Virus record (IMG/VR): IMGVR_UViG_3300042485_000867 | Location: 1 to 30,607 of that record | DNA: 30,607 nucleotides | Source of the DNA: a virus | Strand: one strand, 5' to 3' | In this document: one piece after another, positions 1,619 to 6,337 of the stretch | Layout: every line of letters starts with the position of its first letter | Numbering within the stretch: the first letter of the stretch is position 1 | Position numbers and translations under genes: made by a program | Notes under the pieces: model-generated | The model's database searches: none | The model's input: only the letters and a program-made list of their open reading frames with translations | Told to the model about the DNA's origin: nothing

Positions 1619-1754
1619 ATTAACTTATTCAATTGAGGGTAATGTAATTGAGACGCATTACTTTCCATCTCGCAACCTGGCTCTTTGGAAACAACGCCAA
1701 TTGCACGGAGACGGCAATCATTACCGAGGGACTTTTAAAATAACTATCCAATGA
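1605..1754 (+). CDS. Small early protein, unknown function
   Basis: A 49-residue protein from ATG 1605 (AACGGAG ATG AAATC). An in-frame ATG at 1569 would lengthen it but overlaps the previous gene more deeply, so 1605 is preferred. The sequence looks like a small beta-rich fold (SFKLTYSIEGNVIETHYFPS) followed by a basic part with RNLALWKQRQLHGDG. It ends in an ATGA overlap with the methyltransferase start at 1751 and is probably co-translated with it. Confidence 0.6.
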   Translation: MKSFKLTYSIEGNVIETHYFPSRNLALWKQRQLHGDGNHYRGTFKITIQ

Positions 1755-3097
1755 AAGTAGGGAGCGATTTTAGTGGAGTCGGAGCATTCGACCAAGCACT
1801 TAAAAGATTAGGTATTGAATACCAAACGATTTTTGCTTGCGATATGGATAAATATGCGAGAGATACTTTTGTTCATAATTACGGGGAGCCAGGTTACTTT
1901 CCTATGAATGTATATGACCGAGAGATTCCAAGTGAATCACTTGATATATATATGACATCTCCTCCTTGTCAATCATTTTCATTGGCTGGAAAGAGATTAG
2001 GCAAAGAAGATAAAAGAGGAATCTTGTTTTTCAATTCTCACGAATTTATTCAAGTAAACAAACCGAGATATTTTATCTTTGAGAATGTCAAAGGATTGCT
2101 TTCCGATGACAATGGAAAAACTTTTAATGAATGGATAAATTTATTAGGAGGAAAGTCGGTTAATGGATTACCAATTTTATTCCCTTATGACGGTTCTCTT
2201 AATTATCATTTATATTGGAAAGTTTTAAATTCAAAAGATTTCGGAGTTCCTCAAAATAGAGAGCGAGTTTTCTTGATTGGAATACGAGACGACGAGGATA
2301 ATAATTTTCAATTTCCTAAAGGTGAATATTTGACTAAAAAATTGAAGGATGTTCTTGAGGACAATGTTCAAGATAAATATTTTTTAAGTGAGAAGATGTT
2401 CTCCCATTTAATAAATCACGAAAGGAGCAAAGAATTCATTAATGAAGACACTCAAAATGTCAATACAATTACATCAAATTATTCAAAACAAAGTTCGGAT
2501 TTGCAATATTTAAAAGTAAATTCAGCAACTTTGAAAGGATATGAAAGCGCAACTTTTGGAGATTCAATATCTCTTTCTCATCCTGGATCTCAAACAAGAA
2601 GAGGACGAGTTGGGAATCAAATTGCACAAACAATTGACTCGAGCTCAATACAAGGAGTCGTTCAAATAAATCCAAGTAAAGAAAGCGGAGGAAAACAACC
2701 ATATCAACAAAATAGGATTTATGATTCAAATGGATTGATTCCAGCGCTTATGTCAAATTTAGGAGGAGACCGCAGTCATAATATTTTGTATGATAATAAA
2801 AGATTAAATGAAACAATACAAAAAAATGATTTACCAAACGGAGAGGTCAAGGCAATTGATACATATAATCGAAAAGTACACGACAACGCTCCGACATTAA
2901 GCGAGCCTCATCATAATACGACGAGATTATGGGATGGATTTAAAATCCGTCGATTAACTCCTCGAGAATGCTTTCGATTGATGGACTTTCCAGATTCATT
3001 CACTTGGCGAGTAAGTGATTCGCAAGCATATAAACAAGCCGGTAATTCAATCGTGGTAAATGTACTTTATAATATTTTAAAACAACTAATCAAATGA
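1751..3097 (+). CDS. C5-cytosine-specific DNA methyltransferase
   Basis: This enzyme transfers a methyl group from S-adenosylmethionine to carbon 5 of cytosine in a specific DNA site. The 448-residue sequence shows the ordered family motifs: motif I DFSGVGAFDQAL (residues 6-17, cofactor binding), motif IV PPCQSFS (71-77, catalytic Cys73), motif VI ENV (111-113), motif VIII QNRERVF (168-174), and motif X QAGNSIVVNVL near the C-terminus (from residue 429). The long region of about residues 190-395 is the expected target-recognition region. No restriction endonuclease lies beside it, so it is an orphan enzyme that probably protects phage DNA from host nucleases. The target is not readable from sequence. 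It is coupled by overlap to both neighbours. Confidence 0.93.
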   Translation: MKVGSDFSGVGAFDQALKRLGIEYQTIFACDMDKYARDTFVHNYGEPGYFPMNVYDREIPSESLDIYMTSPPCQSFSLAGKRLGKEDKRGILFFNSHEFIQVNKPRYFIFENVKGLLSDDNGKTFNEWINLLGGKSVNGLPILFPYDGSLNYHLYWKVLNSKDFGVPQNRERVFLIGIRDDEDNNFQFPKGEYLTKKLKDVLEDNVQDKYFLSEKMFSHLINHERSKEFINEDTQNVNTITSNYSKQSSDLQYLKVNSATLKGYESATFGDSISLSHPGSQTRRGRVGNQIAQTIDSSSIQGVVQINPSKESGGKQPYQQNRIYDSNGLIPALMSNLGGDRSHNILYDNKRLNETIQKNDLPNGEVKAIDTYNRKVHDNAPTLSEPHHNTTRLWDGFKIRRLTPRECFRLMDFPDSFTWRVSDSQAYKQAGNSIVVNVLYNILKQLIK

Positions 3098-3447
3098 CAA
3101 GAATAGACGAAATAAAAGAGATAATATTGAAAGAGGGATTGCATATTCCAAACCGACAACGAGAGAAAGTTTATCGAAGGTTTTACATTGCTAATTTATT
3201 GAGACGAGAGGGATTAATGCTCAAAGAAATCGGAGAGATTTTAAATCGTCATCACTCATCAATCATTCATTACATTTCAAGCCATAAATATTGGACAAAA
3301 ATCAAGGACGAACAATATATTGATTATACAATCGACTTGATGGAAATGCCTCCCATTAAAAATACATTAAAACAAGAAATCTTGAAAGTAAAAACGATTA
3401 AACAATTGAATGAACTAAAAAATAAAATTGATGAGTTTGTTTATTGA
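3094..3447 (+). CDS. DnaA domain IV-like DNA-binding protein
   Basis: This 117-residue protein carries a helix-turn-helix resembling the C-terminal DNA-binding domain of the replication initiator DnaA. Residues 29-62 contain ANLLRREGLMLKEIGEILNR followed by HHSSIIHY, which parallels the signature in which DnaA has (G)RDHTTVLHA. The AAA+ ATPase domain of DnaA is absent, so it cannot be a full initiator. It lies directly upstream of the iteron region at 3525-3782, so the natural guess is that it binds those repeats to help open the origin or to repress local promoters. It overlaps the methyltransferase stop (ATGA). The fold is fairly certain; the role is inference. Confidence 0.75.
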   Translation: MTRIDEIKEIILKEGLHIPNRQREKVYRRFYIANLLRREGLMLKEIGEILNRHHSSIIHYISSHKYWTKIKDEQYIDYTIDLMEMPPIKNTLKQEILKVKTIKQLNELKNKIDEFVY

Positions 3448-3466
3448 TTAAATTTACTTATATTTG
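3436..3466 (+). promoter_or_regulatory. Promoter, Bacteroidota type (TTTG-N19-TATATTTG)
   Basis: TTTG at 3436-3439 is followed by exactly 19 bases and then TATATTTG at 3459-3466. This matches the Bacteroidota housekeeping consensus TTTG-N19-TAnnTTTG. Transcription should start near 3473, within 20 bases of a terminator hairpin, so it would make an RNA of about 50 bases unless readthrough occurs. Confidence 0.6.
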
Positions 3467-3490
3467 GCCTTTCATAGTGTTTAAAGGTTG

Positions 3491-3521
3491 AGAGCCTCTC
3501 GTAATTGGGAGGCTTTTTTTA
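3491..3521 (+). terminator. Intrinsic terminator after the DnaA-like gene
   Basis: AGCCTC (3493-3498) pairs with GAGGCT (3509-3514), extended inward by a G-T wobble and a C-G pair around the loop GTAATT. Seven T follow (3514-3520). It would end transcripts from the early operon and from the promoter at 3436-3466, insulating the origin region. Confidence 0.85.
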
Positions 3522-3524
3522 TTC

Positions 3525-3782
3525 CGTGACGATCCAGGGCAAAGCGTGACGATAAAAAAAACATCGTCACGGCCTTAAAGTCAATAGGAGTAAAGGTATA
3601 AGGTAAAAGCGTGACGATGACGATAATTTTTTACTCGCATTCTATGGAAAAATATATAAATGTGTTTTTTTTTGAATTTTTTTTTATTTTTATCGTCACA
3701 TCGTCACGCTATCGCTGAAAGTCAATCCAGTATTGATTTATAGCCGTGACGATAAAATTTCACATCGTCACGCATCGACACG
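3525..3782. other. Putative replication origin with nine CGTGACGAT iterons
   Basis: The nonamer CGTGACGAT occurs at 3525, 3545, 3610 and 3745 on the + strand. It occurs as ATCGTCACG at 3563, 3700 and 3764, with near copies at 3692 (ATCGTCACA) and 3774 (ATCGACACG). Two head-to-head pairs (3545/3563 and 3745/3764) are separated by 9-10 AT-rich bases and could form cruciforms. The sites at 3610 and 3692/3700 flank an almost pure AT stretch (3625-3691), like a DNA unwinding element. The region is non-coding, lies between the DnaA-like gene and the primase-helicase, and is the only such cluster seen. Together these suggest an iteron-type origin, possibly doubling as an operator for the replication gene. 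Confidence 0.7.
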
Positions 3783-3829
3783 CTTTTAAATTATTTTTAT
3801 TTAAATGTTTTATGAATGAAATTTAATAC

Positions 3830-3837
3830 TATATTTG
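3830..3837 (+). promoter_or_regulatory. Promoter -7 element for the replication leader
   Basis: TATATTTG at 3830-3837 matches the Bacteroidota -7 consensus TAnnTTTG. No clear TTTG is found 19 bases upstream, only a T-rich TGTTTTA at about 3806-3812. The predicted start of transcription is about 3844-3847, which coincides with the first bases of the pseudoknot element below. The proximity of the iterons (last at 3774-3782) suggests that iteron binding could repress it. Confidence 0.5.
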
Positions 3838-3846
3838 TCAATATAT

Positions 3847-3919
3847 GATGCAGTATAAAAAAAAATTTAAGCCATTGGCCGAGTACCGACTGCATCCGGG
3901 AAAGGCCGTGGCTTTTTTT
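3847..3919 (+). ncRNA. Structured leader RNA: predicted pseudoknot plus terminator before the replication gene
   Basis: Two helices cross each other. GATGCAGT (3847-3854) is perfectly complementary to ACTGCATC (3889-3896). AAGCCA..GGCC (3869-3880) pairs with GGCC.TGGCTT (3904-3914). Their order is a-b-a'-b', an H-type pseudoknot. ACTGCATC also forms the exact 8-base loop of a CCG/CGG mini-hairpin (3886-3888 with 3897-3899). Seven T follow the second helix (3913-3919), so it can act as an intrinsic terminator. It starts at the predicted transcription start and ends 12 bases before the primase-helicase start. It is probably a cis-acting attenuator or a small RNA controlling replication. No known riboswitch or ribozyme consensus was recognised. 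Confidence 0.6.
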
Positions 3920-3931
3920 AACCTATGAAAA

Positions 3932-6337
3932 ATGTCAATACCTAAATTATCCGTATTTAAAAGCCTCTTTAATTCAAAAGATACTCCATACACGATGACG
4001 ATTATCGATGTATATGAAAGAATCAAAAACGGCTATTCCGAACTTAACACAAAGATTCTTTCCCTCCGTCAAATGGATGAGTCAAGCGAGGAACATCGAC
4101 AATTAAAAAATTCACTCCTTGCAATAATGTTTAATGGAATATTCTCCGAAAGGAATGACAATGGACTCGTTGAGCATTCCGGACTTTGCGTTCTTGATTT
4201 CGACGATTATCCCGATGCCGTTACAATGGCCAATGAACGGCAAAAATTAATAGAATGTCCATTTGTTATGCTTGTATTTACCTCTCCGGGAGGAAAGGGA
4301 TTAAAGGTTGTCATTAGAATACCAAAGAGTACAAAGTCGGAACATAAAAGAAGATTCCAAGCATTCGAAAAGTACCTCCAAAGTGATTACTTTGACAAGT
4401 CATCTTGCAATGTGTCGAGAGTTTGTTTTGAATCTTTTGATCCAGATGCTTACTTGAATGAATTTTGTGACGAGTTCCAAGGAATTGACCAAGAAAAGGG
4501 ATTTGAATTTCACGAAAAAACTCCGACTTGTATATTGAACGACGAGGATAAGATAATTGATAGGATAATGAAATTTGATTTTGGATGTTCATTTATCGAA
4601 GGGAGTCGGAATCAATATATTTTTAAAGTATCGGCTTGCTTTTGTGAGTATTCAATTTCAAAAGATACGGCCGAATATTATTTGAGCCGATTTGTGTCCA
4701 AAGATTTCACTCAATCGGAATTAGTTACCACGATTAAAAGCGCTTATAAGAAGGCGACTGCTGGAATAAAATACTTTGAAGATAACGAGCTCGTTTCAAA
4801 GGTCAAATTAAAACTAAAACAAGGAGTCAATCCGAGAGATATTAAAAAGCAATTGAATGTTGAGGACGATATAATTGACGACATAAAAATTGAAGTTGAT
4901 TCAAGCGAGGATATATTTTGGACGATTGAACAAAAGAAAAACGGAGGAGAAAACATCTCAATTGAGCCGTTAAAATATGCCGAGTTTTTAGTAAAGCACG
5001 GTTTTAATAAGTATTATCCGGAGCAAGCCGAACGGCCTACATTCGTCCGAGTTCGGGAGAACAAAGTTCGCTTGTCATCCTCCGAGCAAATCAAGGATTT
5101 TGTTTTGCAGTATCTTATAAGTCGAGGAGAGATATCCGTTTGGAATTATTGCTCGAAATCTCCTTATCTATTTAATGAGAATCATTTAAATATGATTGAT
5201 TCAATTAATTTAAAGATGTTACAAGATACCAAGGATTCCGCTTATCTCCCATTTAAGGAGGTTGTCGTTAAGGTTTCAAAGAATGACATTGATTTACTAA
5301 AGTATATCGATGTTGATGGATATATATGGGAGAATCAAATAATAAACCGAGACTTTGTTAGGCTTGATTCATTCGAGAATGATTTTCAAGACCTGGTGTC
5401 AAAAGTTTCGGCCGAGAATCCGGAACGAATTACAGCGCTTGAATCAACTCTCGGATATCTTATTCATACCTTTAAAGATAAGACCGACCAAAAGGCAATT
5501 ATATTCAATGACCAAGAAATTAACGACAATGCGAATGGAGGCTCGGGAAAGTCTTTGATGCTTACCGCTATCGGTAACCTTAGAAGAGTCGTTAAAATTG
5601 ACGGGAAAGGCTTTAAATTGGGAGGTGATTTTGTTTACCAAAGAGTTAATTTAGATTCTCAAGTTCTCGCTTTTGACGATGTTAAAAAGAACTTTGATTT
5701 TGAGCAATTGTTTTCTATTGTATCCGAAGGAATTGCAGTCAATCGAAAGAATAAGGATGAGATATTTATTCCATTCGAACGCTCTCCAAAGATTATAATA
5801 ACGACAAATTATGTCATCTCCGGCTCTGGATCAAGCCACGACCGACGACGACACGAGCTCGAGTTCTTTCAATATTTTAATGCAAAGCGTTCTCCTTTGG
5901 ATATTTATGGCCGATTATTATTTGACCAATGGGATTCAAACGATTGGAATAAATTTGACAATTATATGATTTCGAACTTGCAAATGTTCCTCCAATTTGG
6001 ATTGACGAAAGCCGTTTCAATTAATGCCGATGCAAAGAGATTTATTCAAGCAACAAGCAAAGATTTTTTCGACTTTATTCAAGATGGAAATATTCCAGTA
6101 AATGCCCGTCATTATAATAATGCAATGATGCAATTGTTTCAAAGTGAAACAAACGGTTGGAAAGATTTGGAATCTCGACGCTTTATTAAATGGCTCGGAG
6201 AGTTTGCAAAATTCAAAGGATATGAATTAATAAAAGACCGAAATCACGGAGGCCGATTCTTTGAATTGGTTGATAATAATAAACCTAAAATCGAGGGAGA
6301 TATTTGGGATGAACTAAACGAAAAATCAATACAATGA
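3932..6337 (+). CDS. Replication protein: primase (VirE-N/BT4734-like) fused to superfamily 3 helicase
   Basis: This 801-residue protein combines primer synthesis with DNA unwinding. The N-terminal part, about residues 1-185, resembles the VirE-N/BT4734-like primase domain: LDFDDY with Asp89, Asp91 and Asp92, then SPGGKGLK at 118-125, then a conserved CFESFDPDAYLN. A helical region follows (about 200-280), then a linker. The C-terminal part is an SF3/D5-like helicase: Walker A GGSGKS (536-541), Walker B LAFDDV with Asp582 and Asp583, a TTN sensor (624-626) and the arginine-rich DRRRHE (637-642). It sits directly downstream of the iteron region and is the obvious replication initiator. An ATG at 3925 gives only a 6-codon ORF, so 3932 is the start. 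It overlaps the next gene (ATGA). Confidence 0.9.
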   Translation: MSIPKLSVFKSLFNSKDTPYTMTIIDVYERIKNGYSELNTKILSLRQMDESSEEHRQLKNSLLAIMFNGIFSERNDNGLVEHSGLCVLDFDDYPDAVTMANERQKLIECPFVMLVFTSPGGKGLKVVIRIPKSTKSEHKRRFQAFEKYLQSDYFDKSSCNVSRVCFESFDPDAYLNEFCDEFQGIDQEKGFEFHEKTPTCILNDEDKIIDRIMKFDFGCSFIEGSRNQYIFKVSACFCEYSISKDTAEYYLSRFVSKDFTQSELVTTIKSAYKKATAGIKYFEDNELVSKVKLKLKQGVNPRDIKKQLNVEDDIIDDIKIEVDSSEDIFWTIEQKKNGGENISIEPLKYAEFLVKHGFNKYYPEQAERPTFVRVRENKVRLSSSEQIKDFVLQYLISRGEISVWNYCSKSPYLFNENHLNMIDSINLKMLQDTKDSAYLPFKEVVVKVSKNDIDLLKYIDVDGYIWENQIINRDFVRLDSFENDFQDLVSKVSAENPERITALESTLGYLIHTFKDKTDQKAIIFNDQEINDNANGGSGKSLMLTAIGNLRRVVKIDGKGFKLGGDFVYQRVNLDSQVLAFDDVKKNFDFEQLFSIVSEGIAVNRKNKDEIFIPFERSPKIIITTNYVISGSGSSHDRRRHELEFFQYFNAKRSPLDIYGRLLFDQWDSNDWNKFDNYMISNLQMFLQFGLTKAVSINADAKRFIQATSKDFFDFIQDGNIPVNARHYNNAMMQLFQSETNGWKDLESRRFIKWLGEFAKFKGYELIKDRNHGGRFFELVDNNKPKIEGDIWDELNEKSIQ

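Follow-up and report, generated by a model that had tools for sequence, protein, structure and literature searches.

What an RNA with two crossing pairings and a terminator-like end does between a promoter and a phage replication gene is the question raised by this locus. The window, that is the whole stretch of DNA analysed, is a virus record of 30,607 bases from IMG/VR, in which terminase, portal, tape-measure and endolysin genes are present; no close cultured relative was found for its terminase. The features of the leader region and its surroundings are the following.

3094–3447, + strand: DnaA domain-IV-like ORF; weak (PF08299 E 2e-4, below its cut-off; phrog_27829 E 1e-4)
3540–3782, + strand: CGTCA/TGACG repeats, presumed origin or initiator sites, ending well before the promoter; from sequence
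3830–3837, + strand: Bacteroidota-type -7 promoter box TATATTTG; read from sequence
3847–3854, + strand: 5' strand of P1 (kissing or pseudoknot strand), GATGCAGT; sequence and covariation
3855–3868, + strand: A-rich linker, A/U-rich in the groups read; sequence
3869–3880, + strand: 5' strand of P2, the terminator hairpin; predicted fold and covariation
3882–3885, + strand: AGUA, 5' side of a loop-E-like internal loop, partner GAA at 3900–3902; AGTA and GAAA invariant in alignment A2 (21 rows)
3886–3888, + strand: 5' strand of P3, CCG, partner CGG at 3897–3899; many differing but pairing P3 sequences
3889–3896, + strand: P1', ACTGCATC, the entire hairpin loop; sequence and covariation
3904–3914, + strand: 3' strand of P2; predicted fold and covariation
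3913–3919, + strand: U-run of an intrinsic-terminator-like element; sequence
3932–6337, + strand: replication gene (rep), 801 aa, with BT4734-like N-terminal domain (PF08800) and PriCT_1 (PF08708); Pfam domains

The promoter box was named after TAnnTTTG, which we take to be the Bacteroidota -7 consensus, and the 5' end of the leader RNA is expected at about 3841–3847. A sigma-70 promoter scan of both strands of 3400–4200 found none; its rules are ill-suited to Bacteroidota. The repeat cluster at 3540–3782 is probably the origin, with the DnaA-like ORF upstream as a possible repeat binder; other repeat words stand at the same place in related phages, GTTACA in group B (see below) and TTGTCA in others. 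DnaA-like genes were also seen near the leader RNA in locus L472 and in the cultured phage Danklef_1. Upstream of the replication region the window encodes a C-5 cytosine DNA methyltransferase (1751–3097), and another lies near the RNA in L472.

The first-pass annotation had placed a pseudoknotted leader with a terminator-like end at the promoter before the replication gene, a picture which the sequence supports. The first pairing, P1 with P1', is a perfect 8 bp as it had been described, its downstream half is exactly the loop closed by CCG and CGG, and the T run does end 12 nt before the rep ATG at 3932. The second helix, given as 10 bp, was right in its existence and in crossing the first, but the predicted fold gives it 7+4 pairs with one bulge. 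The AGUA/GAA internal loop is presumably of the loop-E or sarcin-ricin-like type. With its G+C-bearing hairpin and direct U-run between promoter and gene, the element has the make-up of a predicted intrinsic terminator or attenuator; the predicted terminator hairpins have energies of -17.7 to -24.7 kcal/mol and are followed by the U-run. A rule-based terminator scan does not list the leader hairpin because the internal loop breaks its gapless-stem rule. Another terminator-like hairpin (3490–3517) lies between the upstream genes and the leader promoter. Since the 12 nt between U-run and rep are too few for a promoter, and given this upstream hairpin, transcripts of rep should pass through the RNA.

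Taken alone, the window element is not remarkable. Its folding energy does little to set it apart (z -1.70, with 11 of 200 shuffles as stable), and a T-run hairpin whose loop has an 8-nt upstream complement occurred in 124 of 200 Markov-shuffled windows, so a single sequence proves little. A narrow descriptor derived from the family matched in only one of 200 shuffled windows, and in 6.8 Mb (both strands) it found 41 distinct places against one in the reversed control. The leader RNA is convincing through relatives with compensating changes, not through the lone sequence.

Related leaders and covariation of the pairings

Relatives of rep from IMG/VR were confirmed by tblastn (the best 80 of 255, and at least 80 in each of the further scans). 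Directly 5' of rep these often carry an RNA of the same plan in largely different letters, in the common order P1, linker, P2, AGUA, P3, P1', P3', GAA, P2' and U-run. Groups were named by P1: A has GATGCAG and includes the window, B has ATGGCGC, and C has AATGCAG, AGGCAG or GTTGCAG. Near-invariant in all three is AGUA opposite GAA, the internal loop between P2 and P3, which by sequence was also found in the loci L472 and L569/L570 and in the phage Harreka_1. On the AGUA side L007 has GGAA and phage elemoF AUUA (ATTA in DNA), and the classes E and G described below differ. Besides AGUA/GAA there are few conserved unpaired bases (in class G, AAGGTATTATT). A loose form of the promoter box, T[AT]nnTT[TC][GA], lies just 5' of the RNA in all 51 leaders of groups A, B and C.

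The covariance model R1, built of P2 and P3 from group B without the P1 pairs, gave 56 matches among 81 sources, no source having more than one, all sense to rep and in the rep leader at the operon head. Of 24 whole records, 17 had a match at E ≤ 1. In 15 of them a single strong match (E < 0.01) lay in the rep leader; weaker matches (E 0.018 and above), among them the sole ones in two records, were examined only by descriptor. The descriptor also found L033, missed by R1. Like L047 (both group C), L033 has an insertion, a NUMOD4-HNH gene (Pfam) between leader RNA and rep (2666–3001 in L047, 2548–2874 in L033), and in both a copy of P1 then sits before the HNH start codon.

A census of 143 distinct rep leaders, window included and each with at least 130 nt of upstream sequence, counted 51 leaders of groups A, B and C (50 by descriptor and L007 by R1), six of class E and ten of class G. 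No such RNA was recognised in the remaining 76, and the RNA is therefore dispensable for rep. Two broad pattern scans of IMG/VR covered at least 120 stretches each, and among the matches listed the recognised members precede rep except in L472 and L496. Searches of 395 Bacteroidia genomes, with stricter filters and no positive control, gave one weak match with model R2 (L426, E 0.0015), which on inspection is an ordinary terminator hairpin lacking AGTA; R3, the class G model, searched under the same limits, gave none in Bacteroidia genomes. When one group A and one class G RNA were compared by blastn with 50,697 phage records, no convincing homologue appeared.

The first-pass annotation had proposed covariation in related genomes as a check, and both helices do covary. 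In alignment A4 (37 distinct rows), which is fitted to the model and hence leans towards the fitted structure, 92.0% of the P2/P3 cells were paired against 63.6% when shuffled and at most 55.2% with slid partners, and 150 cells were double-changed against 53.6. Counted by pairs the signal did not rise above the shuffles, 13 of 15 being changed on both sides against 11.6 in shuffles, of which 93 of 500 reached 13. Within group B alone, aligned with MAFFT, 93.5% of the cells were paired against 87.0%, and P1 hardly varies there. P3 has many differing sequences which still pair.

For P1, which has five main sequences and their variants over 35 RNAs, 98.8% of the cells were paired across groups against 68.0% when shuffled, with 69 double-changed cells against 23.1; here two truncated RNAs were dropped, the register was the best of six, and the descriptor itself requires P1. 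A less circular test, though the R1 profile contains the P1 letters of group B, was made on the 52 untruncated R1 hits (four truncated ones dropped), which reduce to 33 distinct ones. In 31 of these, at least 7 nt of the 5' end are complementary to the RNA's own body and in the other two 6 nt are, as against 116 of 1650 controls with shuffled 5' ends and 36 of 640 with bodies from other groups. Inside groups A and B, P1 is so nearly constant that some demand other than self-pairing may act on it.

Sister designs and members in cultured phages

A more general pattern, requiring the promoter box, a P1 helix no shorter than 7 bp, P3, P2 and the U-run, gave 45 distinct hits in 10.0 Mb against three in the reversed control. 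Five of the 45 were judged by eye to be non-members, namely the minus-strand reads of L036, L041 and L058, as well as L582 and the minus strand of L589. The pattern revealed class G, whose RNAs have at the 5' end a hairpin, P0, that presents P1 as its loop, and whose terminator hairpin has a different internal loop. Among 11 class G sequences 19 of 29 pairs were changed on both sides against 12.9 when shuffled, a value as high in none of 500 shuffles, and 93.7% of the cells were paired against 73.5%. R3 matched in 15 of 68 sources, 11 being its own members. In this class the largely conserved, unpaired AAGGTATTATT lies between the two kissing hairpins (columns 30–41 of alignment A7).

The genes that follow vary, and in some loci they are replication genes unrelated to rep. 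Leaders of class G stand 5' of an HNH-like ORF and then rep, before a DNA methyltransferase-like ORF and rep (L589), and before a replication-type and a DnaB-like ORF (L496), all these ORFs being named by eye. In L472 a Lin1244_N protein (PF14297) follows a leader of the AGUA/GAA type with P0, and in L569/L570 a leader of this kind is followed by a 171-aa ORF and rep. Locus L571, read by eye, has a P1 of 8 bp but lacks the AGUA/GAA loop. Group C, L472 and L569 show a clear P0; in the window its counterpart is the weak 3-bp UAU/AUA that flanks P1. A P0-like pairing in group B was not counted since it uses bases of the promoter box, which are expected to stay untranscribed. The six distinct class E leaders have a different hairpin, and class E may be an RNA class of its own. 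Its loci (L242–L249, L251) carry upstream of rep a separate terminator RNA with the conserved GTAAAAGG...CCTTTCC.

Also cultured phages have such leaders. The general pattern matched Flavobacterium phage vB_FspP_elemoF_6-3D, 5' of a small ORF, the replication protein and a primase/helicase, and blastn with this stretch found 70 records, 68 of Flavobacterium sp. BAL314 phages and two of Olleya phage. Four records were read: elemoF_6-3D, elemoA_7-9A, elemoA_13-1A and Olleya phage Harreka_1, of which the general pattern misses the last three, added via blastn and read by eye. In all four the loop of a 5' hairpin complements the loop of the terminator hairpin; the loop pairs, chosen by eye and imposed on the fold as constraints, are GTGGAGG/CCTCCAC, TGAGAGC/GCTCTCA, GTGAGATG/CATCTCAC and GTGGTGG/CCACCAC. 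The blastn similarity between elemoF and elemoA lies mostly in the flanks and not in the RNA. In Harreka_1 the RNA precedes two small ORFs and the replication protein. Polaribacter phage Danklef_1 has the loop pair GGTGGAA/TTCCACC a short way 3' of its DnaA-like gene; among the genes that follow, one has a stretch in common with the elemoF replication protein. In elemoF, elemoA, Harreka_1 and Danklef_1 the RNA thus opens the replication operon or lies close to its start. The isolate stretches phi46:1, Leef_1, Panino, MW202897, B124-14 and BF3-TP1 gave no general-pattern hit, and no member was recognised in them. With members among phages of Flavobacterium, Olleya and Polaribacter that are in culture, the mechanism is directly testable.

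What the first-pass annotation missed is that, judged by its relatives, the RNA belongs to a wider set of kissing-hairpin leaders heading the replication operons of Bacteroidota phages.

Leader RNA and promoter repeats

At a stage when 86 leaders were counted as lacking the RNA (finally 76), 65 of them had the promoter box within 45 nt of rep. In leaders without the RNA, repeats of the CGTCA/TGTCA type are close to the box or over it (gap median 9, range 5–46), compared with a median gap of 51 and a minimum of 27 in groups A, B and C (48 loci; three have no such repeats). Because group B uses other repeats, the comparison was redone with any 7-mer present three times, leaving out 21 leaders without a box, nine that were too short and three without repeats. 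No more than 25 nt separated such repeats from the -7 box in 44 of 56 leaders without the RNA and in eight of 48 leaders of groups A, B and C. Class E is an exception, with repeats this close to the box in five of its six leaders.

In the FastTree tree of Rep (133 rows) the leader types need at least 17 changes, and the Rep proteins of L040 and L046, without the RNA, and of L041 (group C) are 99% identical with that of L047. Among independent pairs on supported branches (n = 11, from 108 loci) the repeat distance followed the RNA in 7.4, ran opposite to it in 0.4 and showed no difference in 3.2 (median p 0.016, range 0.004–0.29). Exceptions to the trade-off were 15 of 62 loci with the RNA, the five class E leaders with near repeats included, and seven of 46 without. 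In the lineages without the RNA, initiator or ori repeats overlapping the promoter appear to do the same job. It is because the repeat distance goes with the RNA in independent pairs, a correlation, that the RNA is read as a restraint replacing an operator.

Proposed mechanism, alternatives and known systems

The leader RNA probably serves as an inbuilt brake on replication of the phage DNA. The reading favoured here, held with moderate confidence, is that of a cis-acting attenuator made of two pairing loops, which would restrain transcription of the replication operon in place of a promoter operator. The plan read from the sequences is a promoter, P1 (often the loop of P0), an A-rich linker and a terminator-like hairpin with a loop of 6–9 nt that pairs with P1, the U-run lying about 5–27 nt before the first gene of the replication operon across the members. 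On transcription from the Bacteroidota promoter P1 would emerge at once and the terminator-like hairpin after it. Fully paired kissing loops of 6–7 nt are sterically feasible, and P1 with the full loop of P3 resembles them. The kissing of P1 is compatible with P2 and P3 and would most simply favour the terminator; by stacking on P3 the contact would help the terminator hairpin to fold. By default only some polymerases would then get through to rep, and the fraction that reads through could be shifted by competing base pairing or by a factor from phage or host, which would set the timing and amount of replication-operon expression.

Four other explanations of the structure were weighed, and a further extension of the favoured one. 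It is unlikely that the RNA acts in trans, as a terminated product of about 75 nt whose loop or 5' strand pairs with other leaders or with phage or host mRNAs. The element is a compact unit from promoter to terminator, P1 hardly varies inside groups A and B, and each molecule has a loop and its complement, so that molecules could kiss one another; however, exact P1 7-mers near gene starts are not conserved among 14 phage genomes with mechanical gene calls, being absent from the window and from G001, G002 and G003 and inconsistent in group B and C genomes, and the place at the replication operon is kept while the downstream genes change.

A translational switch, in which the hairpin loop would close the first gene by pairing with its initiation region, either in the read-through mRNA or in trans, is a rather improbable general function. 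It draws on group C, where a second copy of the P1 sequence stands immediately 5' of the next start codon, that of rep in L036, L041 and L058 and that of the HNH gene in L033 and L047, on a CTTCGAC copy at the same place in five class G leaders (L127, L131, L149, L175, L178), and on class E, where the loop complements the stretch between U-run and start (6–8 bp by eye). No copy of P1 before the next start was present, though, in groups A and B including the window, nor in the class G leaders L126, L156, L164 and L173. To judge by these sequences, the designs of group C, of some class G members and of class E suggest an added translational layer in those phages, which the window does without.

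A slim chance is given to an extension of the attenuator into a gene-dose sensor without an antisense gene. Every leader that is released contains both partners of the kissing contact; those made from other genome copies could thus pair in trans with a leader still being transcribed and shift its terminator, and lineages would swap this circuit for the operator and back.

Coupling of the terminator to translation of a leader peptide or leaderless short ORF from the ATG inside P1 is highly improbable. An ATG lies in or at P1, near the expected 5' end, in most leaders of groups A, B and C; still, the ORFs have 4 to 27 codons and differ in frame even among close relatives, the ATG is missing from L033 and L047, and the conservation is in RNA helices and not in codons. 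The window itself has a frame of 27 codons (3845–3928), from ATGATG to a TGA over the next ATG, of which neither frame nor length is conserved, and on this variation among relatives the leader-peptide reading was rejected. An ordinary terminator that insulates rep from upstream transcription, with the pseudoknot there by chance, has the frequent generic arrangement of shuffled windows in its favour but is next to negligible, as P1 and its loop change together across divergent phages and the element is downstream, not upstream, of the rep promoter.

The first-pass annotation recognised no known riboswitch, ribozyme or plasmid copy-control RNA, and the Rfam 15 covariance models gave no match in the window. 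In 22 related loci nine matches were obtained at permissive E-values and none at the gathering score; one of the nine, TEG147 at L569:906–955 (25.5 bits where 56.1 are needed, E 0.91), overlaps an element. Nor was a description of such an RNA in Bacteroidota phages found in the open-access papers searched. The kissing contact of two hairpins is used also by cobalamin and purine riboswitches; the phage RNA differs from these loop-loop riboswitches in having no Rfam match where scanned and few conserved unpaired bases. Type III toxin-antitoxin ToxI is likewise a small pseudoknotted phage or plasmid RNA followed by a terminator and a gene. Here a primase/helicase is downstream and not a toxN-like gene, there is one strong match per record and no tandem ToxI repeats, and the fold is different. 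The c4 antisense RNA of phages P1 and P7 is a short RNA from its target's own transcript, complementary to the start of the next gene. Groups C and E resemble it in this, though their structure differs and groups A and B are without the target copy; its model, RF01695, had no match in the window or the 22 related loci.

Closer are the leaders of plasmid rep mRNAs. The attenuators of pIP501 (RNAII/RNAIII) and pT181 share with the phage leader a terminator in the leader of a replication-initiator mRNA, and in pIP501 the control falls in part to a repressor site that overlaps the promoter (PMC4981023). Unlike these antisense-controlled plasmid systems, the phage leader has loop and partner in one transcript, no antisense gene being recognised, and operator and RNA, partners in pIP501, are seemingly alternatives in the phages. 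In the IncIalpha plasmid ColIb-P9 a pseudoknot in the leader of the repZ mRNA controls rep; it lies 5' of the ribosome site and translation depends on it, whereas the phage element includes a terminator (PMC8383071). In groups A and B, moreover, the partner of the loop is the 5' end, unlike in ColIb-P9, and a loop complementary to the sequence before the rep start was absent from the window and groups A and B and seen only in C, E and part of G. By analogy, the leader would work most like the plasmid rep attenuators, but in phages and with no antisense RNA recognised.

Bacteroidota phages thereby gain a set of pseudoknotted or kissing-hairpin leader RNAs whose comparative support is relatively good, which had no Rfam counterpart among the loci scanned, and which is tied to the expression of the replication operon. 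If the gene-dose sensor were true, it would mean feedback from phage copy number onto this operon. The apparent trade of RNA attenuator for promoter operator in otherwise near-identical phages would offer a natural experiment in the restraint of replication.
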